Part shown: positions 84-29,980 of the stretch, piece after piece
Layout of the letters: each line of letters begins with the position of its first letter
Position numbering within the stretch: position 1 is the first letter of the stretch
IMG/VR virus record: IMGVR_UViG_3300050021_000848
Location: 1 to 29,980 of that record
Direction: 5' to 3' (one strand)
Length of the DNA: 29,980 bases
DNA from: a virus
Position numbers and translations under genes: made by a program
The notes under the pieces: model-generated
Seen by the model: only the letters and a program-made list of their open reading frames with translations
Database searches by the model: none
Told to the model about the DNA's origin: nothing

Positions 84-3000
84 TTAGGTGTCCAGTTTGA
101 CCGTCAGGGCCTCCGTGGCGCCCGACTCAATCGTGAAATTCAAACGCTCTCCGGCGGTGAAAATGCGGAACGGCCAGGTGCCCGAATACGGCGTCTGCTG
201 CCCGGCCGGAGGCGATTCGCCGGGCCAGGAGTTGGTCTCGCCCACCGCAATCGTCAGCGTTTCGAGTGTCGTCCAGGTTGCTCCGCCGTCGCTGGTGACC
301 CGCACGTTGACGACTAAATCGTCCGCCGCGATAGCCTCCGGGGTGTAGCAGAAGTTCACCCGCTGCGGTTGGGTCAAGTCCACGCTGAAGTTGTTCTTGG
401 CCACCAGCGTTCCGGGGTCGCCGTAAACCCGATCCGTCTGGAACGAGAACTCGCCACCCACGCACGTCCGCAGCCCAGGGACCGTCTCGCTCGCGCAATT
501 CACATTGACCCACGTGCCGTACCAGGTATCGGTGAACGGGGCGGCCACAATGGCCACCACGCACGCCGATGGCAGCGCCATGTCGAAGCGCGCCACGCCA
601 TCGCCCGGGCGCGTGAACTCTAAGGTTTTGGCGTTGGACAGGAACTGCCGCACCTGCCCCTTGAAAAGTCGAATCCCTGCATCGTGGGCGGCCAGCGGAG
701 CCTCGAACGTCGAACACCCTGCCAGTTCGCCGGGATAGTGCCGTTGGATCGTCCACACGTCGCCGGCTTTGACGGTGAGTTGACCGATTTCGAACTTCCC
801 CGCATCGTTCCAGACGATCCAATCGCCCACCACGAACGCAAGATCGCTGGTTTGCCCGGGGTTGGGAATGACGGTCAGTGTGAGGGGATCGGTGGCGCCC
901 GAGTCTACCGCGTCAGTGGTGGTGGCGTAGCAGTCTGCCGTCAGTTCGTCCACGTAGACCACGTAGAAGTTGATGCCCGTCAGGGGGTAAGAGCCGGGAA
1001 TGGAGAGGGCGATATTGTCCGCGGTGATCCATCCGGCATTCTTCACCGCTGCCGTAAAGGTCAATCCGTCCCACACCCGGCCCGCCGGCTCGCCGGGTAT
1101 TGGTGAAGCCACCACGTCGGCCGGCTTCGGCCCCACGGTCGTGTCGTACATGCTGGCCGTGACGCTCTGCCCCTGGATGTCAATCGACCAATCCCGATTC
1201 AGGGCCCAGCGCTGAATCCGGATGTGCCCGGTGGCGATGTGGAAGGATTGCCCAGAGCCCGTGAAGGTCGCGGTATCGGTTACGAGAGTCTGGTGCGCCA
1301 TATCCACGCTCGCAACCAGCACGCGCAGTCCGCCGATCAGGACCGCGCGGCCGACCATGGTGGCGTCGAAAGGATCGCCGTTTGCCCACGCCACGGCGGT
1401 GCCGGAGACATCGCACGTGCCATGCGCACCCGGCATGTCCGGATCTTCCACGCTCACCACCATTCCGGCTTCCGTCTCCAGGGCCAGGATGGTGGTTTTC
1501 AGGCTGACCACGCGCGCGCCGTCCTGCTCCGCCTGGGTGATGCCTCCCAGCTCCTCGCGCTCGCGAACGATTGCCAGGCGGGCCGCCTGGGACTTGGTCG
1601 AGCAACCCGACAGGGGGAAGGTGGCGGCAAGAGGGTTCTGGGACCGCTTGTTCCGCGCTGCATGGTCTTGATCCGTCAGATCGATCGTGTTGCTCTGGAA
1701 CTGGTACTCCTGATCGGCGAAGGACAGCGTTAGTTTTTCGAATTGTGGCTTGATGGGGCTGAGGTGCAGGGAGTCGAGAAGCATGTTCCCCGTCGTGAAG
1801 GCGCTGGCTGCGGAGGCGTTCTCCCGGCAGCCGACTTTTAGTTTTCCGAAGGACCAGACGTAATAGCCGGATGCCGAATTCAGGATGGCTTGCAGCCAGT
1901 CTCGCGTCGGTTTCCGGTCATCGATGGTCCCCTTGAACCGGAACTGAATCTCGCTCCCCGTGCCGATAATCCTGGTCACCGTGATGTCGGCGACCGCCGC
2001 GGCAGCGACGGCCGAGGGCACATCGAACAACTCCTCTTGTGCCTCCGCGTCCAGGCCCAGAACGCCAACCGCCGAAAGAAACGTGTTGACGGCTACCCAG
2101 AACGGATTGGTGCAACCGGGGATGGTGGTTCGCGCACCCGGACCGGTCCAGGCGAGAGCGGTCAGCCCTTGCGAAACCGCGGCGACCATGGTGTGCTGGC
2201 CTGGGGAAGTCAGCGGATCGCTGTTGGGCTTCACGCGCCGGATCTCACAGAAGGCAACGCCGGCGGCGAACACGAGGTTGTACGCGCTGGATGCGTAGGC
2301 GACTTCTTTCATCCAGCTATTGTCGGAGGGCTGCTGGAACCACCCCACGCCGGTGGCGCTGACCCGCCCGAGCGAGAAATAGTCATGCTCGCCAGCGGGA
2401 TCGCTTCCAAGAACCTGGCGAAGGCCGAAAGTGGCGACAGCCCCGGGCTTGAGCACTCCCGCGCTGGTGACCTGGAATCCGTGGTTGGGTTGCCCGTCGA
2501 GCGTCGAGCCAGCGAAGGCATCTGGAACGGCATCGGCGTTGGAATCGTACATCTGAGGCGCAGTGAATGCGCCCAGCGGTCCCTTGCCCACGATCCCGAG
2601 CGCGATGTAGAACTGGTCCTCGTCTCGCCCGGCCGCGACCTTGCACGTCACGGGGAGCGCGTTCTGCGGCTGGCCGTCGTCATCGTGCCAGATCTCCGGC
2701 AGGTTCTGTCCGTAGATGGTGTCCGAAATGAGAGAGGTCCGCGGGTACCAGGTGGAGACCGATCCGACGAACGTGCCAAGCGGTCCGCCGATGATGGGAA
2801 GGAAGCCCGGGAAGGTCAGGCCGATGCCGCCCGAGCGCAGGAGGACTGCCTGGGGGGAGCAATAGGTCGCCCCATATCCCGGTGCGGTTACGGCGAGGCC
2901 ATGAGCCAGGCAACCGTTCGGGGTGTTGTACCCGAGGTCGCATTTGGTGGTCAGCGCGTCGGGGAAGTGAACCAGGTCGCGGGTGTCGGTGTCCGGATCC

Positions 3001-3965
3001 CATTGGCAGCCGTCCTGCCCCAGGCGGCGCCAGCAGGTCCGCGAAACCAGGTTCACCGGAGAGGATAGCGTCAGTGCCGACAGGATGTCCGACGCCTTGA
3101 CGCTCATCTCGGGTCCGGCGTCGGAAGCCCAGTCGATAATGTAGCCGGCCCACAAGTCGAGCCGAACGGTCGACCCGACATGGTACAGGGATAGCTCGAT
3201 GCGTGCCCAGCGTAACTGCGTGTCGTTGGCGAGGCGCACCATCACGCGATCCGCGTTGCCGAAGGAGAATGTCACGTCGTCGCTCGAACCGTCGATGCTC
3301 TGTGTGACGAGAGCCCCCCCGCCCGGCTCGCCGACCCGCAGCAACCGCGGCAGGTACAAAGAGTCAACCGGATCGCCCTCGCCGCGCGAGTCCCGGATTG
3401 TCACCCGGCGATCAGAGAGCAGGATATCGGGCACTTCGGCATCGAGCACCCGGATCCGCACCAGCGGGATGATCTCCTGCACCTGGTCCAGGAGCGCATC
3501 GGTAAGCGTGTGGTTCGGGAACCGCGAAACGATGGCACCGAGGCTGTACACTGGCGCGTCGTCTGGGTCGGGGATCTCGACGAAGACGACGCCGGCGCCG
3601 CAGATCGAGTCCGACAATTCCTCGAAGGTGAGGGGCTGGTTCTCGAAGCACACGGTCTTGCGGGTGAAGGTCTGGTCCTCGTTGGGGACGTCGTAGAAGA
3701 ACGCGCCGGCGGCTCCCTGCCGCGCCTCCCAGAAGTTCCGCAACGTCAGGCGCAGCGACGCGGTCAATCGCGTCGACTTAAATGTGTACCGCGTGGCCGG
3801 CGACCCGACGTAGAACCGCTGCTCGATCTTGGCGTTGGCCGATCCGAATTCGTGGGTGATTACGAGACGCTTCTGCGCGCGCCCGTGCGGGAACTCGGTG
3901 ACCAGGGGGAACACCTGCGACGCGGACGTGCTGGCGACCGGGATGCGGCCAACGGTATCGCTCAT
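84..3965 (-). CDS. Large tail-tip protein: gpM-like + gpL-like (four-Cys, probable Fe-S) + hub-like fusion, 1293 aa
   Basis: Start chosen at the ATG at 3965 because it makes an ATGA overlap with the stop of the preceding gene; the open frame extends 39 codons further upstream but only through that gene. Residues about 1-120 (TEFPHGRAQKR..., FWEARQGAAGAFFY) look like a distal-tail gpM/DUF2460-type domain. Around residue 312 a cysteine set appears, C-x8-C-x21-C-x9-C (TCWRRLGQDGC, then TTKC and NGC). Its spacing is close to the C-x8-C-x22-C-x6-C that holds the 4Fe-4S cluster of lambda gpL. Further on, 'KLTLSFADQEY' and a run rich in REREE fit a baseplate-hub (phage-tail_3/gpJ-like) segment. The C-terminal ~300 residues are beta-rich with 'DGGATWTTLETL', suggestive of a distal beta-sandwich. 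It would close the tail end and start the tip after tape measure assembly. Domain borders are estimates. Confidence 0.75.
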   Translation of the reverse strand: MSDTVGRIPVASTSASQVFPLVTEFPHGRAQKRLVITHEFGSANAKIEQRFYVGSPATRYTFKSTRLTASLRLTLRNFWEARQGAAGAFFYDVPNEDQTFTRKTVCFENQPLTFEELSDSICGAGVVFVEIPDPDDAPVYSLGAIVSRFPNHTLTDALLDQVQEIIPLVRIRVLDAEVPDILLSDRRVTIRDSRGEGDPVDSLYLPRLLRVGEPGGGALVTQSIDGSSDDVTFSFGNADRVMVRLANDTQLRWARIELSLYHVGSTVRLDLWAGYIIDWASDAGPEMSVKASDILSALTLSSPVNLVSRTCWRRLGQDGCQWDPDTDTRDLVHFPDALTTKCDLGYNTPNGCLAHGLAVTAPGYGATYCSPQAVLLRSGGIGLTFPGFLPIIGGPLGTFVGSVSTWYPRTSLISDTIYGQNLPEIWHDDDGQPQNALPVTCKVAAGRDEDQFYIALGIVGKGPLGAFTAPQMYDSNADAVPDAFAGSTLDGQPNHGFQVTSAGVLKPGAVATFGLRQVLGSDPAGEHDYFSLGRVSATGVGWFQQPSDNSWMKEVAYASSAYNLVFAAGVAFCEIRRVKPNSDPLTSPGQHTMVAAVSQGLTALAWTGPGARTTIPGCTNPFWVAVNTFLSAVGVLGLDAEAQEELFDVPSAVAAAAVADITVTRIIGTGSEIQFRFKGTIDDRKPTRDWLQAILNSASGYYVWSFGKLKVGCRENASAASAFTTGNMLLDSLHLSPIKPQFEKLTLSFADQEYQFQSNTIDLTDQDHAARNKRSQNPLAATFPLSGCSTKSQAARLAIVREREELGGITQAEQDGARVVSLKTTILALETEAGMVVSVEDPDMPGAHGTCDVSGTAVAWANGDPFDATMVGRAVLIGGLRVLVASVDMAHQTLVTDTATFTGSGQSFHIATGHIRIQRWALNRDWSIDIQGQSVTASMYDTTVGPKPADVVASPIPGEPAGRVWDGLTFTAAVKNAGWITADNIALSIPGSYPLTGINFYVVYVDELTADCYATTTDAVDSGATDPLTLTVIPNPGQTSDLAFVVGDWIVWNDAGKFEIGQLTVKAGDVWTIQRHYPGELAGCSTFEAPLAAHDAGIRLFKGQVRQFLSNAKTLEFTRPGDGVARFDMALPSACVVAIVAAPFTDTWYGTWVNVNCASETVPGLRTCVGGEFSFQTDRVYGDPGTLVAKNNFSVDLTQPQRVNFCYTPEAIAADDLVVNVRVTSDGGATWTTLETLTIAVGETNSWPGESPPAGQQTPYSGTWPFRIFTAGERLNFTIESGATEALTVKLDT

Positions 3966-19290: not shown

Positions 19291-19504
19291 TCACGGCAGC
19301 ATTGGCCGACACGCCAACCTGTCGGCGCCGGAGCGAACGTGGGCCAAACGTGGCGCTACGGTGGCCAATCCCTGGCTCGCTTGCAGGAGCCGTAACTCCG
19401 CCGACCAGTCCACCAGCGCCTGGCACAATCCCTGAACGTCTGGATGCCCCGCGCGAAGTTCGCTCTCGACGTCGGCGATCTCCTGGCGGCAGCGGGCGAT
19501 TCAT
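19291..19504 (-). pseudogene. Small gene apparently frameshifted at its start (about 70 codons)
   Basis: The ATG at 19504 overlaps the methyltransferase stop as ATGA, a normal coupled start, but its frame soon becomes an R/P/G-rich shadow. One frame over, directly after the methyltransferase TGA, a coding-like reading runs IARCRQEIADVESELRA, GHPDVQGLCQALVDWSAEL and RLLQASQGLATV, to a TGA at 19293-19291. It has no ATG/GTG/TTG near its beginning. Deleting one base just after ATG AA would join a normal start to this reading. The 'GHPD..GL..AL.DW.AEL' phrase resembles small helical phage proteins I have seen as hypotheticals. Either a real frameshift mutation, a sequencing error or chance. Confidence 0.4.
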
Positions 19505-20826
19505 GCTGCCCCGATCCGGCGGTCCTCGGCGATCTCCTCGAACGTCCGCCCGTCGCCATCGAGCCTGGCTTTCTTGCCGGACAGCGTTTGCCAGCGCTGG
19601 ATCACTACGTCAACGTATTTGGGATCGAGTTCGATGCCGCAGCAGACGCGCTCAGTGAGTTCGGCGGCGGCCAACGTCGTGCCGCTGCCCAAGAATGGCT
19701 CGTACACCAGCTCGCCGCGCTTCAAGTGATTGAGGATCGGGCGCCGAAACAGTTCGACGGGTTTTTGCGTGGGATGATCGAATTTCTCCTCGTCCGAGCC
19801 GCCCATAATGAACTTCGGCGACGGCGAGTCCCAGATCGTCGAATTCTCGCCGGCCTTCCCGAACCACGAGGCGTTCTTCTTTCTGACGTACCAGCAGGGC
19901 TCATGCTGATACCAGTAGTGCGTGCGCGTGAGAACCGTGCGCCCTTTGTTCCAGATTATTTGCTGCGGGTAAAGGAACCCTATGCGAAGCAGGCCGTTCA
20001 GCACTTCGCGCGTGAAGATGGACGCGTGCCAGACATAGGCGATTTGCAGGCTGGGCACCAGTTCGAAGGCTTCCGACCAGTCGGCCCGTGTGTCCCCTGA
20101 GATGGTCGTTTCGGTGTGGCCCTCCGTGCGGTGTTTCATGTAGCTCGCCTCGGCAGGTCCACAGCCGTTCAGGCCGGCGCGGTCACGCCACTCGCTGTCC
20201 AGCTCGATGCCGTACGGCGGGTCGGTCACCATCAGCTTTGGCTTGCGCTCCCCCAGCAGCCGCGCCACAGCTTCTGCGCTGGTGGCATCGGCACACAGTA
20301 CGCGATGTTGACTACGACCATCGCCGCAGAGCCACAGGTCGGCCGGGCGGGAAACCGGGTTGTCGGGGACCGGTGGGACAGTGTTGGCCTGATCGTCATC
20401 GGCGACCAGCAGGAAGTCGTCGATCTCCTTTTGGTCGAAACCGGTAAGGCTGAGATCGAAGTCCGCCTCAGAGAGTTCCTGCAATTCGAGAGCGAGAAGG
20501 TCATCGTCCCACACCGCCCATGTCGCCGACCGATTGACCAATAAACGAAAGGCTTTCACCTGCGCTTCGGTCCACTCGTCGCACAGGATCACCGGGATTG
20601 AACTCGTGTCGCCGCCGGGCCACGATCCCAGTTTGCGCGCAGCCTTCAAGCGGAGATGGCCGTCAACAACTTCACCGTCGCTGCGCGCCAACACGGGAAT
20701 CTTGAATCCGAACTCCCGGATACTGCCGCACATGCGATCGACTGCGGCGTCGTTCTTGCGGGGATTGCGGGCGTAGAAGACGAGCTTATCGATCGACCAA
20801 ATCTGGATTTGCTGCTCCACTGGCAT
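19501..20826 (-). CDS. DNA methyltransferase (N6-A/N4-C) with N-terminal ParB-like domain (441 aa)
   Basis: ATG at 20826 has GAGGTCAAGAC in front. Residues ~8-100 are a ParB/Srx-like nuclease fold: IDKLVFYARNPRKND, IREFGFKIPVLARSDGEVVDGHLRLKAARKLG, with the typical G-x-x-R-L-x-A-A. Residues ~165-430 are the methylase: motif IV TDPPYGIELD (D202-Y205) precedes motif I EPFLGSGTTLAAAEL (F378-T384), the beta-class order, with HPTQKPVELFRRPI between. The SAM pocket continues CCGIELDPKYVDVVIQRW. No restriction partner lies nearby, so it is an orphan phage methylase, likely protecting phage DNA or altering regulation. This ParB-methylase layout is common in prophages. Target sequence not predictable. 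Confidence 0.93.
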   Translation of the reverse strand: MPVEQQIQIWSIDKLVFYARNPRKNDAAVDRMCGSIREFGFKIPVLARSDGEVVDGHLRLKAARKLGSWPGGDTSSIPVILCDEWTEAQVKAFRLLVNRSATWAVWDDDLLALELQELSEADFDLSLTGFDQKEIDDFLLVADDDQANTVPPVPDNPVSRPADLWLCGDGRSQHRVLCADATSAEAVARLLGERKPKLMVTDPPYGIELDSEWRDRAGLNGCGPAEASYMKHRTEGHTETTISGDTRADWSEAFELVPSLQIAYVWHASIFTREVLNGLLRIGFLYPQQIIWNKGRTVLTRTHYWYQHEPCWYVRKKNASWFGKAGENSTIWDSPSPKFIMGGSDEEKFDHPTQKPVELFRRPILNHLKRGELVYEPFLGSGTTLAAAELTERVCCGIELDPKYVDVVIQRWQTLSGKKARLDGDGRTFEEIAEDRRIGAA

Positions 20827-24800: not shown

Positions 24801-25045
24801 AATTCGACCAACTGCAAGACATCTCCACCTGTGCCACAGCCGAAGCAGTACCAACCTTGCTTGTCGAGCATGATATTCAGCGATCGTTTAGACTGGCTCT
24901 GGTGATTCGGGCAATCGCAGAGCAGGGTTCGCTCCGAGGCTTGAGTGATCCGCCCATTCAAGAGCTCGCGAGCGATCCCGCCGATATCGACCGACGTGAT
25001 CCGCCGGTAGTAGTCGCGGACGCCGATGGACGATGGTTGGCTCAT
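21887..25045 (-). CDS. Replicative primase-helicase: CHC2 zinc finger, TOPRIM and AAA+ domains (1052 aa)
   Basis: Start set at ATG 25045, which overlaps the sigma-like gene stop as ATGA; a longer frame only re-reads that gene. Residues 40-85: primase zinc finger with C45-x2-H48 (CPNH) and C67-x2-C70 (CFGC). Residues ~230-250: RTVFPYWSRGHVVFMIGR, a DnaG-like fold before TOPRIM. Residues 285-385: TOPRIM with VVITEGVTD (E307, D311) and LCQDNE (D353). Residues ~400-730: helical and linker parts. Residues 750-900: P-loop ATPase, Walker A APSVGSGKG (K764), Walker B IVLLDNAD (D810), sensor MMTANNPH (N856/N857) and Arg LTRRCIRVRI. The C-terminal ~100 residues are probably DNA- or partner-binding. One chain thus supplies primer synthesis and strand opening for phage replication. 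Confidence 0.9.
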   Translation of the reverse strand: MSQPSSIGVRDYYRRITSVDIGGIARELLNGRITQASERTLLCDCPNHQSQSKRSLNIMLDKQGWYCFGCGTGGDVLQLVEFVHTGCITRGQSGRMPESHREARDFLADRVGMPSLSHAGLSPEAIEEMERERRKSLRVFEALTSLADYYHQRLLADTDALNWFREKYRIGDEMIARLKIGYAQNASWADSAGNRQCGVLDALCRGPNAFTHAELSGTSAFRPSGSGISPFFNRRTVFPYWSRGHVVFMIGRKTPWTPDADWEAPKYKKLAVRNGGKNAHVAACIRNDVLYNEDILAARPDRVVITEGVTDCISLMEHGFPVVSPVTVQIKDADWERILPKLAGAKTIYLCQDNELSDAGLRGALRTAQILTENGITTRVATLPLGEKQQNARRQLEDGFGLHGPADSLRGAGLEGRSKEETQLATALLEQAKLDVNEYFAEGRTAADFESVLASAQTPMELSISRLSPGTAESELDHVLGPILAAVKRLSPVEQERHLRLIQNRFGKERISLSVLRKQARATPVEEATDGKARILSGRSPQDQVESAAALPRIQVNNRQLRDVVADSWAAVHRANQPGAAIFRNTPYVFSRGEQLVYLADRDPTIEIEQMGEAAVFGLLARVADWHRVTDETSVDVIPLKEAARDMLAYIDPTLPQLHAVIRTPVFGCDGSLIATPGYHPKDRVWVDADSTLQLGQLSNTPTPEEIRTARDLFCDEMLVDFPFTDLSDRAHAVAAILLPFVRRMIEGPTPLHLIEAPSVGSGKGLLANVVAIVATGASCESRTLPEDDDEIRKMITAELLKARPIVLLDNADDRKKLHSPSLASVLTAVRWTDRLLGESKMASLPNQGLWMMTANNPHLDLELTRRCIRVRIDPRLDRPWQRTEFRHPDLVRWVKANRGPLVHAILTLVLGWIATGRPIDQKRLGSFEGWSELVGGILGVAGIEGFLANLDQLYDQADQDGQKWREFTAAWWDAFRDAEKQVSELNGFCEQRGLMLEVRGNGQPRSQQVRLGNALSRCRDRLFGSLRVVKVEGDSKHKGVTYYRLADDQSQ

Positions 25046-25602
25046 TTCACCCGCTCCCGGGGACGCCTCGCGTGCGCGGGCGAAAAGCCAGCCCGAAGAA
25101 AAGCTTCCCGAATCTGCCTGGTCATTTGATACACCCGCGAGCGGGACTTGCGAGTTTGCCGGCACACATCCTGGATCGGCATTTGGCCGAGCAGCCCTGT
25201 TAGCGACTGCAAGTGGTCTGGAAGGCGTTCGACGACACGACGAACGTCGAGAGCGCGGTCCAGTGCATCCACTGCGCTCCCGCTCGGGCGCCTACCGAGA
25301 CTGTCTAGCGCGTCGGCATCGCTGGCGTCCTCTCCATTCATCAAGTCCTGAATAGAGACTTCGGAAGCGCGCCGGCGTTTGCGCATGATGAGCACGGTAG
25401 CGTGATGTCGTGCCACACCCCGCACGAAGCCCTGCCAGTCGCCGCGTGCCGGATCGAACTTGGGCGAGCGGCGAAGGACGTCCAGAATGAATTCCTGCTT
25501 CAGGTCAGCCCAGTCGTCGGTACCGAACCCGGCGGTGGTAACCAACAGCCTGGCCTGGCAGGACGCATGCTGGAGAATGTACGGGTCGACGGTCGCGTTC
25601 AT
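25042..25602 (-). CDS. Sigma-70-like (ECF-type) RNA polymerase sigma factor (186 aa)
   Basis: ATG at 25602 overlaps the preceding stop as ATGA, which fixes the start inside a longer open frame. Region 2-like part at ~20-85: DDWADLKQEFILDVLRRSPKF, DPARGDWQGFVRGVARHHAT, VLIMRKRRRASEVS; the 'DL.QE..L...R....F.P..G.W..FV..VARH....' pattern is that of region 2.1-2.3. Region 4-like part at ~115-175: VRRVVERLPDHLQSLTGLLG, PIQDVCRQTRKSRSRVYQMTRQIREAF, an HTH with the usual 'S...VY......R..F'. In phages such proteins redirect host RNA polymerase or regulate phage genes. It is directly coupled to the primase gene. Activity as a true sigma is inferred only. Confidence 0.75.
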   Translation of the reverse strand: MNATVDPYILQHASCQARLLVTTAGFGTDDWADLKQEFILDVLRRSPKFDPARGDWQGFVRGVARHHATVLIMRKRRRASEVSIQDLMNGEDASDADALDSLGRRPSGSAVDALDRALDVRRVVERLPDHLQSLTGLLGQMPIQDVCRQTRKSRSRVYQMTRQIREAFLRAGFSPAHARRPRERVK

Positions 25603-25970
25603 ATTACGACCTCCGCGACGTGGGCTTGGATGAACACTCGGCGCGGAATACCTGCGCGCACCTCGATCCGCTGGACGTGGCCAGCGTGCATTTGATCGAG
25701 CTGGTCGAGCAAGCGGCAAACTTCGTGGGACAAGGCGAAGTCGGCCAGTTCAGATTCGGGCCGACCACCGCTGTCCGCATCGAGCTTGACTTCAAGCAGT
25801 AACATGGGCGGCGGGTTGAACACCGGCTCGCGATCGCGTATCTGAAGGTCGAGGATTTGGCCGTAGTCGATCAACTGGCACAACCGCACCAGCGCCTGCC
25901 ATGGGGCGGAGAGTTCGGATAGCCTGCGTTCCCGCTTGGACGCGGCGGTTGCCGGAGCCTGCTGCTTCAC
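25599..25970 (-). CDS. Unknown early protein (123 aa, GTG start)
   Basis: GTG at 25970 overlaps the TGA of the preceding gene as GTGA and has a strong GGAGGTGATGCA site directly in front, better than any ATG. Its stop overlaps the sigma-like start as ATGA. N-terminal ~20 residues are basic (KQQAPATAASKRERRL), then a helical part SAPWQALVRLCQLIDYGQI, then PPPMLLLEVKLDADSGG and a helix HEVCRLLDQLDQMHAGHVQ, ending in a strand pair (RIEVRAGIPRRVFIQAHV). No family recognised. Being locked between an HTH protein and a sigma-like factor, it may be a regulatory partner. Confidence 0.75.
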   Translation of the reverse strand: MKQQAPATAASKRERRLSELSAPWQALVRLCQLIDYGQILDLQIRDREPVFNPPPMLLLEVKLDADSGGRPESELADFALSHEVCRLLDQLDQMHAGHVQRIEVRAGIPRRVFIQAHVAEVVI

Positions 25971-26197
25971 TGCATCACCTCCTGGCAGCGATCTACAGCG
26001 CGCGCTGCAATCCACCGACGCAGCTCACCGCGGCGGTAGAAGATCCGGTTTGAGATACGGATGAACGGAGGCCCGCCGCCAAAAACCCGTTTTCGGCGGT
26101 ACCATGCTAAGGACATAGGCAGCTCCTGTTGCTTGGCCTGTATGTCCGTCAATAGATCGTTATCGCCCTGGGGGGATGGACTTGCCACGTGCGTCAT
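25967..26197 (-). CDS. HTH_17 / excisionase-like DNA-binding protein (76 aa)
   Basis: ATG at 26197; the sequence GTGGAGACGAATC in front supplies GGAG. After a polar N-terminus the pattern is ELPMSLAWYRRKRVFGGGPPFIRISNRIFYRRGELRRWIA: helix, turn with P-x-x-x, W/Y recognition helix, 'GGGPPFIRISNR-FYR..ELRRWI'. This is the MerR-like HTH_17 fold of excisionases and AlpA-type regulators. It starts the early operon that runs into the primase and is preceded by three TTCTCCAC repeats that may be its own targets. Could be the excisionase, an early regulator, or an origin-binding protein. Confidence 0.8.
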   Translation of the reverse strand: MTHVASPSPQGDNDLLTDIQAKQQELPMSLAWYRRKRVFGGGPPFIRISNRIFYRRGELRRWIAARAVDRCQEVMQ

Positions 26198-26277: not shown

Positions 26278-27174
26278 TTATGCGCGTGCCGCGCGCTTTC
26301 CGGTGCGGTCCCATTTCGCGCGGGGAGAACCGATCTTTTTCAACACTCCGTTGAGCGTGTCCTCGCGGTACCGGGTCTTGTCTCCGCGCGCCATTCCGTG
26401 CAGAGCCGACTTGCTAACTCCGAGCCGCCGAGCAAGAGCGTCCATCCCGACGAGACCGTTTGCCGTCATGAAAGCCTTCATGATCGCGCGGCGGTGCGCC
26501 GCAAGTGAGCGCGAAGCCTTCTTGGCTTGCGAGCCTTGTTGGGCACCGGCTGGGTTCGGATCTGTGAGTTGGTCCTCGATAAAGCCGAAGTCTGCGGTGA
26601 TGCGTCCGCCCCGAAGCGAAAGGACGAGGCCCAGATCCACGAGCTGAAGTTTGCCGGTTTCGACAGGCACTGCCGTGGAGAAGGGCAGCAACAGTACGCC
26701 GGTAACCCGACCGTATGCCTGGCGAATCTCTGTCATCGCAGCCTGCAGTTCGTCTGGCCCGATCACCGCGAAAAAGAAGTACGGCGTGCGTCCCGCTACG
26801 CAGCCCCGTCCCAGGAACCAAAGCTGGCTCGCGGGCAAAAGCCGAACCTCCCCGGAGAGGGCGAGCGCGTGGGCAAGCCAGGTTGATAGCTGCCCAGGGC
26901 TGGCTCGCCACCGGCGCAGGCGTTCAAGAATGACGTCCACAGTACCGACTAAGGGACACGGGATGAAAGCCCGCTTGCCGTCCTCGCTCCATCGCACTCG
27001 TTCCCAATGCGCTTCCGGGCAAGCGTCACAAGACACGTGGGTGGCACGATCAATCTCGTGCAGCAGGCCAGCCGCCGTCAACGCTTCGAAGTCGGCGGTA
27101 CTCCAGTCGGAAATGTCGTCGTATGTGAATTCAGGATTGACAGACGAGAGCCGCTGCAGAAACTCACTCCACAT
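26278..27174 (-). CDS. Uncharacterised protein with cysteine motif and C-terminal helix-turn-helix (298 aa)
   Basis: ATG at 27174 lies 11 bases inside the 391-aa gene, so the two are coupled. N-terminal ~45 residues are helical. Then VSCDACPEAHWERVRW and RAFIPCP follow (C-x2-C, later C-P: a possible zinc site), LERLRRWRASPGQLSTWLAHAL, LLPASQLWFLGRG, and a barrel-like region to ~200. A Q/K/S linker leads to residues ~230-298 with GLVGMDALARRLGVSKSALHGMARGDKTRYREDTLNGVLKKIG, a clear HTH. The 'C..C...H.E.V......F.IPCP......LRRW......LA........LWFLGR' order fits a widespread hypothetical family I recognise only as uncharacterised. With its HTH and place beside the integrase it is the best candidate for a lysogeny regulator here. 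Confidence 0.7.
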   Translation of the reverse strand: MWSEFLQRLSSVNPEFTYDDISDWSTADFEALTAAGLLHEIDRATHVSCDACPEAHWERVRWSEDGKRAFIPCPLVGTVDVILERLRRWRASPGQLSTWLAHALALSGEVRLLPASQLWFLGRGCVAGRTPYFFFAVIGPDELQAAMTEIRQAYGRVTGVLLLPFSTAVPVETGKLQLVDLGLVLSLRGGRITADFGFIEDQLTDPNPAGAQQGSQAKKASRSLAAHRRAIMKAFMTANGLVGMDALARRLGVSKSALHGMARGDKTRYREDTLNGVLKKIGSPRAKWDRTGKRAARA

Positions 27175-28339
27175 GTGCCCGACCTACTTCGAGCCCCCAT
27201 GCTGGGAGATACCGCCAAAGGATTTTGTCTTCCGGACCGTCATCCAGATCGCACCATCTCGATACAGAGATTCTGAAGTTTATGACCTTTTCCGGCTGGC
27301 CCGGTGCGCGGAATACGACCTGCAAAACGGCGCTCAGGATCTTCGATTTTGCCAGTTCCCGGAGACCGCCGACAAGCTTTGCTCGAAGCAGATCGTATAT
27401 CGAGTCATCGAGATCGTCAGGATCTACTTCAAACAGACTCCTGTGCTGCGACTTTTCATGAAACTGCAGTCGGAGAGCTATGACGCGGACCAGCGCGATG
27501 TGGTCAGCAGGTTTCCGCCGAAATTCGTGCTTGTGGTCCTTTAAAACGTGGAGATCGTACGTTTTCTTCGCCGCTCGCGGAGGAGGTGGCGCGCCAAACG
27601 CCGCGAGCGAGAATCGCTTGAATAGTTCGTCGTGCTTGTCGGCTCCCCCCTTGGCGAGCAGGCTCACGCTGCCGGCGGGACCATCGAGGTAGTACACGAT
27701 GTGGAAAGGGGGCGTGACCCTTACGCTGGTTAGTTGACCGTCCGAGCCGTAGGTATCAATCTCATCGACGTAATCCGACGGGTAGGCGTGAAACACGTGA
27801 ACACCGTCGTGTTCCCGATGGTCCACCCTGCACAAATGTGCGCGCTCTTCTTCCTTGTAGACGTCCTTGATGTGCAGCTTGAGGTTGTCGATAAACGCTT
27901 CGGTGACGTCGACCTTCCCATCAGGAAATCCAACACGAGTTTCTCGGGAAGTCCTGGGGAGACCATAGGTGTACGCGTATACCCGCTGATGATCGAACAA
28001 CTGGGGATGCTCCACAAGACACCAAAAAGCGCGCTCGTAGGCGTTTTTCATCGCTGCCAGTTTGTCCGCAATATCGAACTTGCAGGCGCGACCGGCTTGG
28101 GTCAATACTGCGGTCCCCATCGAGTCGGCCAAGGCATGAACCTGCCGCCACCTGACTCCGATGTGGTGCCGGTCGGCCTCGTCCAATGCGGACAGCCGCT
28201 GAAGAATAGGCCCAGCATCGTTCTCTGCCAGAGCCTTCCAGTCAAGATCTGCAAAAGCCTTGTACGGGGAGAGGAGCCGATGGAGGAGTACGTTCGGCGT
28301 TTTCTCAACGACGGCGCGTGGATTGTACGGTTGGGACAC
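27164..28339 (-). CDS. Uncharacterised 391-aa protein, first gene of a two-gene module
   Basis: GTG at 28339 with AAGGAGGG five bases in front; no ATG fits better. Pattern: LDWKALAENDAGPILQRLSALD, FDIADKLAAMKNAYERAFWCLVEHPQLFD (helical), a charged VYKEEERAHLCRVDHREHDG, then VFHAYPSDYVDEIDTYGSDG, PPFHIVYYLDGPAGSVSLLAKGG, YDLHVLKDHKHEF, and a last domain with IYDLLRAKLVGG and KILWRYLPAWGLEV. The 'YERA.W....P..F' and 'YPSDY' plus 'IVY.LDG..G...L.AKGG' phrases fit a hypothetical family that I recall only as unannotated. No nuclease, kinase, protease or membrane motif is visible. It overlaps and is co-transcribed with the HTH gene from the promoter near 28484. Confidence 0.75.
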   Translation of the reverse strand: MSQPYNPRAVVEKTPNVLLHRLLSPYKAFADLDWKALAENDAGPILQRLSALDEADRHHIGVRWRQVHALADSMGTAVLTQAGRACKFDIADKLAAMKNAYERAFWCLVEHPQLFDHQRVYAYTYGLPRTSRETRVGFPDGKVDVTEAFIDNLKLHIKDVYKEEERAHLCRVDHREHDGVHVFHAYPSDYVDEIDTYGSDGQLTSVRVTPPFHIVYYLDGPAGSVSLLAKGGADKHDELFKRFSLAAFGAPPPPRAAKKTYDLHVLKDHKHEFRRKPADHIALVRVIALRLQFHEKSQHRSLFEVDPDDLDDSIYDLLRAKLVGGLRELAKSKILSAVLQVVFRAPGQPEKVINFRISVSRWCDLDDGPEDKILWRYLPAWGLEVGRAHVE

Positions 28340-28474
28340 GAAGCCCTCCTTAGCCAGCGAGGGCTCCAGACGGGCCGCCTTACTTGTCGGCTACAGGCAG
28401 TGGTTCAGTCCTCCCGCGAAGGCTCAAGAGAGACAAGTATGGAGCCCATCCACCAGTAATTGAATTGGGCCGAC

Positions 28475-28485
28475 ATAGTCACTAT
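28475..28485. promoter_or_regulatory. Palindrome overlapping the module promoter (operator candidate)
   Basis: ATAGT-C-ACTAT, perfect 5-bp arms around one base, overlaps the first bases of the -10 box (28484-28489) and the expected transcription start. A protein bound here would block RNA polymerase. The HTH domain encoded by the second gene of the module is an obvious candidate binder (inference). Confidence 0.45.
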
Positions 28486-28513
28486 TATATCCCTACGAAA
28501 GAGCGACTGTATA
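28484..28513 (-). promoter_or_regulatory. Promoter of the 391-aa/298-aa module
   Basis: On the minus strand TATACA (28513-28508) and a perfect TATAAT (28489-28484) are separated by 18 bases. Transcription would begin near 28477, giving a leader of about 140 nt before the GTG at 28339. It lies in a short A/T-rich island in otherwise GC-rich DNA. Confidence 0.65.
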
Positions 28514-28532
28514 TTACAAAGAATTACAATAT
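28511..28532. repeat. ATTACAA direct repeats upstream of the module promoter
   Basis: ATTACAA at 28513-28519 and again at 28523-28529, ten bases apart (one helical turn), flanked by ATATT (28511-28515) and AATAT (28528-28532) as an outer inverted repeat. It overlaps and extends upstream of the -35 box, where an activator or a second repressor dimer would bind. Confidence 0.45.
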
Positions 28533-28963
28533 CGGCGCCACCGCCTGCCTTGAAACGGTCGGCGCCTCCAAGACCAGGATTTGAGTGGACATTCCCGCAG
28601 TCCCCGCAGTATTAGTTGACAGGACCAATCACTCCGCGTCAACACCAGATATCGAGATGGCCGCCAAGCGGAACTCGTTGTGGGTGTCGAACAGGACACG
28701 ACCATGCGAGACGGTTTACGGGCTCAATCGAAGCACTTAGCACTTGAATCACGGGCGAACGCGGGGCCCCTACGGGGGATCGCGCATCATGTTCCGGCAG
28801 ATGCGGAACGTGGCCGGCGGGAATCGGCGCGACAGCGTTCCTGCCGCGTGGCGCGGGGGGCGGACATCCGGGTCCTGGCCCGGGTTGACGCCCTTGACTG
28901 TTCACCACCTGAGAGTGTTCATGGGTGTGACGTGCCAGTAACCGACATAGAGGAGTCCTTCCG
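28533..28963. other. Intergenic region before the integrase
   Basis: About 430 bases with no convincing gene. Plus-strand frames of 95 and 65 codons are open but R/G-rich, and the longer one runs into the integrase in another frame. A TTGACA is present at 28616-28621 without a partner -10 at normal distance. GCACTTAGCACTT near 28733 is a short direct repeat. An attachment site would be expected here, but no tRNA-like end or core repeat can be recognised. Confidence 0.4.
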
Positions 28964-29980
28964 ATGAGCGCCGCCCTGATGCCGGTGAAGCTCGTTCCTG
29001 TGCCCCGCCAGGAGCCAGTTGCGGGCGTATCGCCCGCCTTCGACGCCGCCTTCGCTGACTTCTTGCGGATTGACGTTGCCAACGGCGACGCCTCGCCCGA
29101 TACCATAAGCAGCTATCGGCGCGAGGTGGCGATGTGGGTGGCCTGGTGCATAACACAAAGCTTTGATCCGGCGACTGTGACGGCGATGGACATCAAACGC
29201 TTCCGACAGGCTTTGGTGGAGGCTGGCTACCAGCCGATCACAATCCGTTGGAAGCTCACCATCGTGCGGCGTTTCTACGAAGCTGCCCGTAACGCCGGGC
29301 TGCGCACGGACAATCCGGCCGCCGGCGTGAAGTCGCCCCGCGTGCGCCAGGCTACCGAGGACTTCAACTATCTGAGCGACGAGGAACTGGGAATTTTGCT
29401 GGCCGTCATCCCCGATCCCGAGCAGGCCACCGGACGCGAGAAGGTGAAGCGTCTGCGCAACCTGCTCATGGTGAGCATGATGGCGTTGCAGGGGCTGCGC
29501 ACCATCGAGGTGCATCGCGCCAACGTCGAGGATCAGGCCGAGAAGGGTGAGAGTCGGGTACTGCTGGTTCGCGGTAAGACCCGCGACCGGATCGCCTACC
29601 TGCGACCGGACATGGGCAGACGATTGAAAGAGTATTTGGCTCTCCGCGGCACGGTCGAACCTGACGCAGACGGAACACCATTATTTTCCGCCTTGGGCAA
29701 TCGCCGTGGTGGCAAGCGGTTGAGCCGCCGCCATATCCGCGTGCAGACTGATGGGTATCTCAAGAAAGCGGGCCTGAAGCGGCCGGGCATGTCCAACCAC
29801 GCCCTGCGCCACACCGCCGGGACCCTGGGCTACTTGCACACCGGCGATCTGCGGGCCGTGCAGGACTTTCTGGGCCACGCCGACCCGCGCATGACGGCCA
29901 AGTATGCGCACGTCGTGGACATGGCCAAGAAGAATCCAGCGCTGTTCATCCCGGCGACGGTGGATAAGAAGACGGCCTGA
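28964..29980 (+). CDS. Tyrosine recombinase / phage integrase (338 aa)
   Basis: Catalyses site-specific strand exchange between attP and attB. ATG at 28964 with AGGAG at 28951-28955. Residues ~25-110 are the SAM-like core-binding domain (FDAAFADFLRIDVANGD, SSYRREVAMWVAWC, RFRQALVEAGYQ). Residues ~130-325 are the catalytic domain with all expected residues: R179 (LQGLRTIEV), K205 (VRGKTRDR), H279-x-x-R282 (SNHALRHTAG), H305 (DFLGHADPRM) and nucleophile Y314 (AKYAHV). It lacks the N-terminal arm-binding domain of lambda Int and looks XerC/D-like in size. Transcribed away from the lysogeny-type module. Complete: the stop is the final codon of the window. It could serve this prophage or, less likely, a neighbouring element. 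Confidence 0.93.
   Translation: MSAALMPVKLVPVPRQEPVAGVSPAFDAAFADFLRIDVANGDASPDTISSYRREVAMWVAWCITQSFDPATVTAMDIKRFRQALVEAGYQPITIRWKLTIVRRFYEAARNAGLRTDNPAAGVKSPRVRQATEDFNYLSDEELGILLAVIPDPEQATGREKVKRLRNLLMVSMMALQGLRTIEVHRANVEDQAEKGESRVLLVRGKTRDRIAYLRPDMGRRLKEYLALRGTVEPDADGTPLFSALGNRRGGKRLSRRHIRVQTDGYLKKAGLKRPGMSNHALRHTAGTLGYLHTGDLRAVQDFLGHADPRMTAKYAHVVDMAKKNPALFIPATVDKKTA

Follow-up and report, generated by a model that had tools for sequence, protein, structure and literature searches.

The A-B locus

The window considered here, meaning the whole stretch of DNA analyzed, corresponds to an IMG/VR virus record and is 29,980 bases long. It carries genes for a terminase, a portal, a major head/protease protein, a tape measure, a primase and a tyrosine integrase, in agreement with the prophage setting of the original prediction; the terminase, portal, head/protease and tape-measure genes, together with the integrase, identify a tailed temperate phage. 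Two of its genes, both on the minus strand, are the subject of this analysis. Gene A (27164-28339) begins with GTG and encodes 391 amino acids, with a match to phrog_37634, an invariant YPxDY motif and a predicted RexA/RdgC/CENP-N(CHL4) fold. Gene B (26278-27174) begins with ATG and encodes 298 amino acids: a constant N-terminal domain (about residues 1-204, 26563-27174), which contains a likely zinc site (C49-x2-C52-x3-H56-x16-C73), is followed by an exchangeable, putative DNA-binding domain, whose C-terminal helix-turn-helix (HTH; about residues 221-298, 26281-26514) is the lower-confidence part of our model. The two reading frames are as first described, and so is their 11-base overlap (27164-27174), which likely couples their translation.

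On one side, A is separated by an intergenic region (28340-28963) from the tyrosine integrase gene (28964-29980, plus strand; Phage_integrase, E 4.7e-18), which is divergent from it. On the other side, B is followed by an early block, also on the minus strand, which comprises genes for a 76-aa HTH_17/excisionase-like protein (25967-26197; weak HTH_17 and phrog_66 matches), a 138-aa protein that we call 'small' (25599-26015), a sigma-70-like protein (25042-25719; TIGR02937, E 2.7e-5, below cut-off) and a 1092-aa primase. Counterparts of the 76-aa gene occupy the same place in three related loci (L119, L120 and L128), and the 'small' and sigma-like genes adjoin A-B in most elements. Elsewhere in the window (19504-20826), we observed a 441-aa protein with an N-terminal part matching ParB-like families and a C-terminal part matching DNA methyltransferase families.

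The proposal that the pair has its own promoter gains weak support. A promoter-like site upstream of A, TATACA-18-TATAAT (28513-28484, minus strand), scores 10/12, but two such sites were found against 1.2 expected by chance. In L002 and L128, too, the DNA upstream of A contains AT-rich stretches resembling a -10 element, in about the same place. A search of the A-integrase gap of the window for operators returned chance-like repeats and nothing more.

Constant pairing of A and B

We identified A at 67% identity in one Terriglobia metagenome-assembled genome, and the PHROG match of A, found in 18 of 399 genomes of the class of that genome, served as the entry point to the family. When the 399 genomes were searched with both alignments, all 16 complete copies of A were found to adjoin B, and all 19 B places lie beside A or are fused to it; the A copies found there without B are all incomplete, being fragments or lying at contig ends. 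When viral contigs were scanned with the A sequence by itself, none was found. The aligned A family recovered 19 viral contigs, with B adjoining A in each, and six more A-B contigs were reached through the 'small' gene, making a total of 25 distinct contigs, all paired. The pair is rare in a phylum-wide sample (4 of 396 genomes, three of them already in the class sample), and a tblastn search of 50,697 genomes of isolate phages with A or B gave no match. A distant pair is carried by a gammaproteobacterial plasmid, where both A (E 2e-36) and B (E 5e-11) are recognizable. In this plasmid (L108 9235-11682; Candidatus Tenderia electrophaga, CP013100), the pair lies directly upstream of multiubiquitin-, JAB- and E1-like genes, the E1 call being supported by PADLOC and the other two made by eye; this arrangement is possibly a ubiquitin-like conflict operon.

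In the neighborhoods retrieved, A is immediately followed by a B homologue in every contig that extends far enough, with the exception of a truncated A in L039. In this copy (2817-3893), the C-terminus of A is replaced by a phage-portal-like C-terminus and a head-protease-like gene comes next, which looks like a recombination scar or an assembly chimera. The two genes overlap by 4 to 29 bases in most relatives, while a few pairs abut. That dozens of homologous pairs retain both frames, and mostly the overlap too, argues that both are real genes beyond what chance would give. In L046, A and B form a single 645-aa ORF, and shared open frames point to two further places where they are probably fused. 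Distances between A sequences and between B N-termini are highly correlated (r=0.928; none of 2000 permutations reached this value). Pairing, fusion and co-evolution together argue for an obligate two-protein module, and the suggestion of a coupled two-gene system is thus strongly supported: the count of co-occurring homologues finds them constantly paired. A and B are a previously undescribed, constantly paired unit.

Tight pairing, an overlap and an HTH partner are also features that might be expected of a toxin-antitoxin-like pair, in which A would be cytotoxic and B would neutralize A and autoregulate through its HTH. There is a precedent in phage Butters, where the RexA-like gp30 is held by gp31 (PMC12894663). 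However, both proteins are large for such pairs, a fused A-B ORF exists, and no match to a known toxin family was obtained; we regard this explanation as very unlikely.

Predicted fold of protein A

No Pfam, NCBIfam or PADLOC family fits A, and PADLOC anti-phage profiles returned no family for either protein. The claim that the pair resembles no named family stands as far as these collections are concerned, but A does match phrog_37634 (residues 6-383 to profile positions 5-404 of 416, E 1.3e-15). This PHROG is like A along nearly its full length; it differs in being a family without assigned function, and B lies outside it. PDB sequence searches produced nothing convincing, and the families listed at E values up to 1 for the 36 members of the A alignment do not include RdgC (PF04381). 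Direct profile comparison by hhalign of A with RdgC, RexA and CarolAnn gp44 gave no match; the controls RdgC versus RexA and RexA versus CarolAnn gp44 fail too.

A model of A computed from a 36-sequence alignment has a mean pLDDT of 85 and a pTM of 0.64. When this model was compared with the PDB by Foldseek, ranks 1-13 were all CENP-N/Chl4 or Escherichia coli RdgC, with E values from 6.6e-4 to 1.3e-2 and probabilities of 0.63-1.00, in most cases >0.9; RnlA came next, and after it unrelated low-probability rows. The top nine rows from VIA-align are CENP-N/Chl4 as well (Z 9.3-7.7, 164-178 residues aligned), and RdgC is matched with a Z of 6.6 over 212 residues. Since Z values of 7 to 8 are common according to the tool's own warning, the fold assignment depends on the consistency of these rows. 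Likeness is at the superfold level, with TM of 0.22-0.46 and about 10% identity. The RexA chain 8twq is not among the matches listed by Foldseek and VIA-align for A, though it is in the PDB sequence copy. The structure prediction called for in the original prediction leads, for A, to the RexA/RdgC/CHL4 superfold, and we consider this predicted superfold reasonably supported.

Within this superfold, CENP-N and Chl4-Iml3 are the top structural matches, covering the central sheet of A and some of its N-terminal helical region; at about 10% identity, this is a superfold resemblance only. RdgC has a predicted fold like that of A (Foldseek probability 0.99, 339 columns); A differs from it in giving no Pfam or profile-comparison match, and in that it comes with an obligate partner and with extra helices at the N-terminus.

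Constant and exchangeable parts of protein B

The motifs pointed out in the original prediction are present and almost or fully invariant among homologues: YPSDY is at residues 186-190 of A, and the pattern of C49, C52, H56 and C73 is found in B. C49, C52, C73 and G122 are invariant in a 33-sequence B family, and CxxCxxxH...C occurs in 32 of 37 B homologues with an almost invariant histidine. From this conservation pattern, the Cys3His set is probably a zinc site. The B model has a pLDDT of 82, and residues 1-204 form a confident domain, with a pLDDT of at least 88 in each ten-residue block of residues 1-200. For this domain, the fold search with B gave weak rows, among them Bax1, EndoMS and Can2, which are nuclease-like; we make no such assignment, as their Z values (5.4-5.7) lie within background and the domain lacks conserved catalytic residues. 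BFVD holds no match to B at E<=0.001.

The HTH proposed for the C-terminus of B is supported by XRE-like rows, with Z values reaching 7.5, when folds are compared, and accompanied by a Pfam HTH_IclR match at E 0.0012; this match, like DUF2782 and similar weak Pfam matches, is below cut-off and was set aside. Residues 206-298 carry a net charge of +16. The XRE-like type is common to the window, L114, L120 and L128; in other relatives it is replaced by different HTHs or winged HTHs. Most relatives of 476-492 aa carry two winged-HTH-like units, a third class includes a coiled stretch, and further HTHs of several kinds occur; beyond weak Pfam matches, these classes were assigned by eye. The pair L032 and L037 captures one such replacement. 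Their A proteins are 93% identical and their B N-termini 75% identical, but their B C-termini are unrelated; that of L037 matches the C-terminus of the distant L062 (43% over 82 aa), and L037 falls within the other C-terminus class when placed on the A tree. Judged from these comparisons, the predicted DNA-binding C-terminus of B is swapped between elements.

B has no transmembrane-like stretch by 19-residue hydropathy, its maximum being 1.19 versus 2.39 for lambda RexB and 2.07 for CarolAnn gp43. No S24 or LexA-type model was found in B or its relatives, which show an HTH only, and neither the A nor the B family has a Pfam match to an ImmA/IrrE peptidase. In sum, neither protein gave a confident match to a known repressor, an ImmA-type protease or a standard replication protein, results that were named beforehand as speaking against a new system, and homologues do occur as pairs.

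A possible exchangeable slot next to the early genes

The usual gene order is recombinase, A, B, small, sigma-like and replication genes. The recombinase varies, being a serine enzyme in L002 and L128 and a tyrosine enzyme in the window, and similarity between these three loci starts only at the start of A. The 'small' and sigma-70-like genes (25599-26015 and 25042-25719 in the window) form a conserved early pair, found with or without A-B. Of the twenty viral contigs collected through 'small', 14 carry A-B; one has its start within B, two more are truncated at the contig start, and A-B is missing from three (L119, L126 and L127). Relatives without the pair have in its slot, one each, a QatC (E 3.4e-56), an RtcR-like ATPase protein or an unknown 251-aa gene. 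The RtcR-like protein (L127 2187-5303) has 1038 aa; towards the C-terminus it matches models of RtcR-type ATPases (E 3.5e-88), and an N-terminal P-loop is visible by eye.

The genes directly upstream of A belong to a Type I restriction system in L062; in L045, a Vsr nuclease is encoded there. In L040 (3281-9805), genes that by eye are Cas9- and Cas1-like adjoin A-B. A separate pair of XRE and ImmA/IrrE-like genes, also recognized by eye, stands beside A-B in L039, L063 and L064. The slot alternatives and the defense-type neighbors would fit a view of the A-B site as an exchangeable cargo slot, with the reservation that such neighbors occur in only some loci.

The position of the pair had been likened to that of CI. 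A-B does have the integrase on one side and the early genes on the other, but its orientation is usually that of the early genes, and it is divergent from small-sig in only five related elements. In each of these five, a TTGTGA-N3-TCACAA palindrome occurs once, in the A/small intergenic region (L030 9744-9758, L035 8850-8864, L053 6747-6761, L054 6745-6759 and L115 4221-4235), and nowhere else in the 128 loci; about 0.06 occurrences would be expected in their 955 kb. The window has none. From its position, the palindrome is a candidate operator, in carriers that are related to one another.

These observations bear on a reading of A-B as an immunity switch, in which B would be a site-specific lysogeny repressor or a Cro-like protein, A its co-repressor, and the C-terminus of B would define immunity groups. 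Such a switch might explain why the DNA-binding part of B is swapped, why no other recognizable repressor appears among the window genes scanned, and why the five elements with A-B divergent from small-sig-primase have a unique palindrome between. However, the close relative L119 retains small-sig-primase without A-B, L039, L063 and L064 have their own XRE and ImmA/IrrE-like pair, most copies of A-B read with the early genes, and the five palindrome carriers are mutually related, so that we hold an immunity switch to be rather unlikely.

The neighborhood also allows us to weigh a role as an accessory of replication, recombination or segregation, whether in RdgC-like modulation of RecA or as a centromere-like clamp with B as its site binder. 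That the nearest folds of A are RdgC and CENP-N/Chl4, that the module adjoins sigma-like and primase genes, and that one copy is on a plasmid are all consistent with this idea. Against it, A-B is not universal in this type of phage, being missing from L119, L126 and L127, and one of the slot alternatives is a defense gene, not a replication gene. We judge such a role to be improbable.

A Rex-like DNA-binding module?

RexAB exclusion has reportedly been under study since Benzer's work on T4 rII, and both its trigger and its purpose are still debated. The pairs of lambda (RexA/RexB), of actinophages (CarolAnn gp44/gp43 and Sbash gp30/gp31) and of Pseudomonas putida (RexAB) are, like A-B, two-gene units that temperate phages carry close to their integrase or immunity region. 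Their first proteins share the RexA/RdgC/CHL4 superfold with A, by prediction, and those of the actinophages are similar in size (370-372 aa versus 391 aa). In contrast, there is no detectable sequence relation between these pairs and A-B, the RexAB partner is a four-helix membrane protein whereas B is predicted to be a soluble zinc/HTH protein, and a CI-like gene adjacent to A-B is absent from the window. A crystal structure of lambda RexA published in 2024 revealed the RdgC/IML3/CHL4 fold; RexA and its actinophage homologues of 337-372 aa dimerize and bind DNA non-specifically, and RexA tunes the CI-Cro switch, with two-hybrid contacts to both CI and Cro (PMC11077077). Only five RexAB-like systems have been described so far (PMC12894663).

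Taken together, the superfold of A, its soluble HTH partner, the swapping of domains, the location in phages and the slot fit a Rex-like module that would bind DNA and act in the lysogen. We favor, at roughly even chances, a reading in which A-B is a module of prophages and kindred mobile elements whose A protein grips DNA while B recognizes sites, for exclusion, tuning of lysogeny or both. Our computations show the pairing, the fusion, the co-evolution, the swapping of domains, the likeness of the A model to the superfold and the position in the slot; complex formation, DNA binding, expression in the lysogen and the biological role are what we infer here. Most likely, A would dimerize and grip duplex DNA without sequence preference. 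B would bind A through its constant zinc-binding N-terminal part, giving one DNA-binding complex, and its HTH or winged HTH, exchanged between elements, would bring A to particular DNA sites; such site recognition would also allow the pair to control its own promoter. The module would most likely be expressed from the prophage and might act on the DNA of invading phages (exclusion), on the balance between lysis and lysogeny of the prophage itself, in the manner of lambda RexA, or on both. By analogy with RexA, which is reported to do both, exclusion and lysis-lysogeny tuning are each compatible with A-B. Several observations count against this Rex-like reading: A-B mostly reads with the early genes, B is unlike RexB, the likeness of A is at the superfold level, defense-type neighbors stand beside only some copies, and profile comparison links A to neither RexA nor RdgC, though its controls fail as well.

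More tentatively, we may also hypothesize that A-B represents a new class, possible though somewhat doubtful at present: a retargetable clamp of RexA/CENP-N fold, aimed by the cartridge-like domain of B and conferring phage-specific immunity or exclusion.

A would add a phage branch to a fold held in common with eukaryotic kinetochore proteins. With a soluble partner that probably reads specific sequences in place of a membrane channel, this widespread family would set DNA binding by the superfold apart from killing through the membrane. It would also allow an experimental test of how the exchange of a domain in nature redirects a phage protein to another DNA target. The predicted fold of A, together with the freely swapped domain of B, suggests a retargetable Rex-like system that defends or controls the dormant virus.
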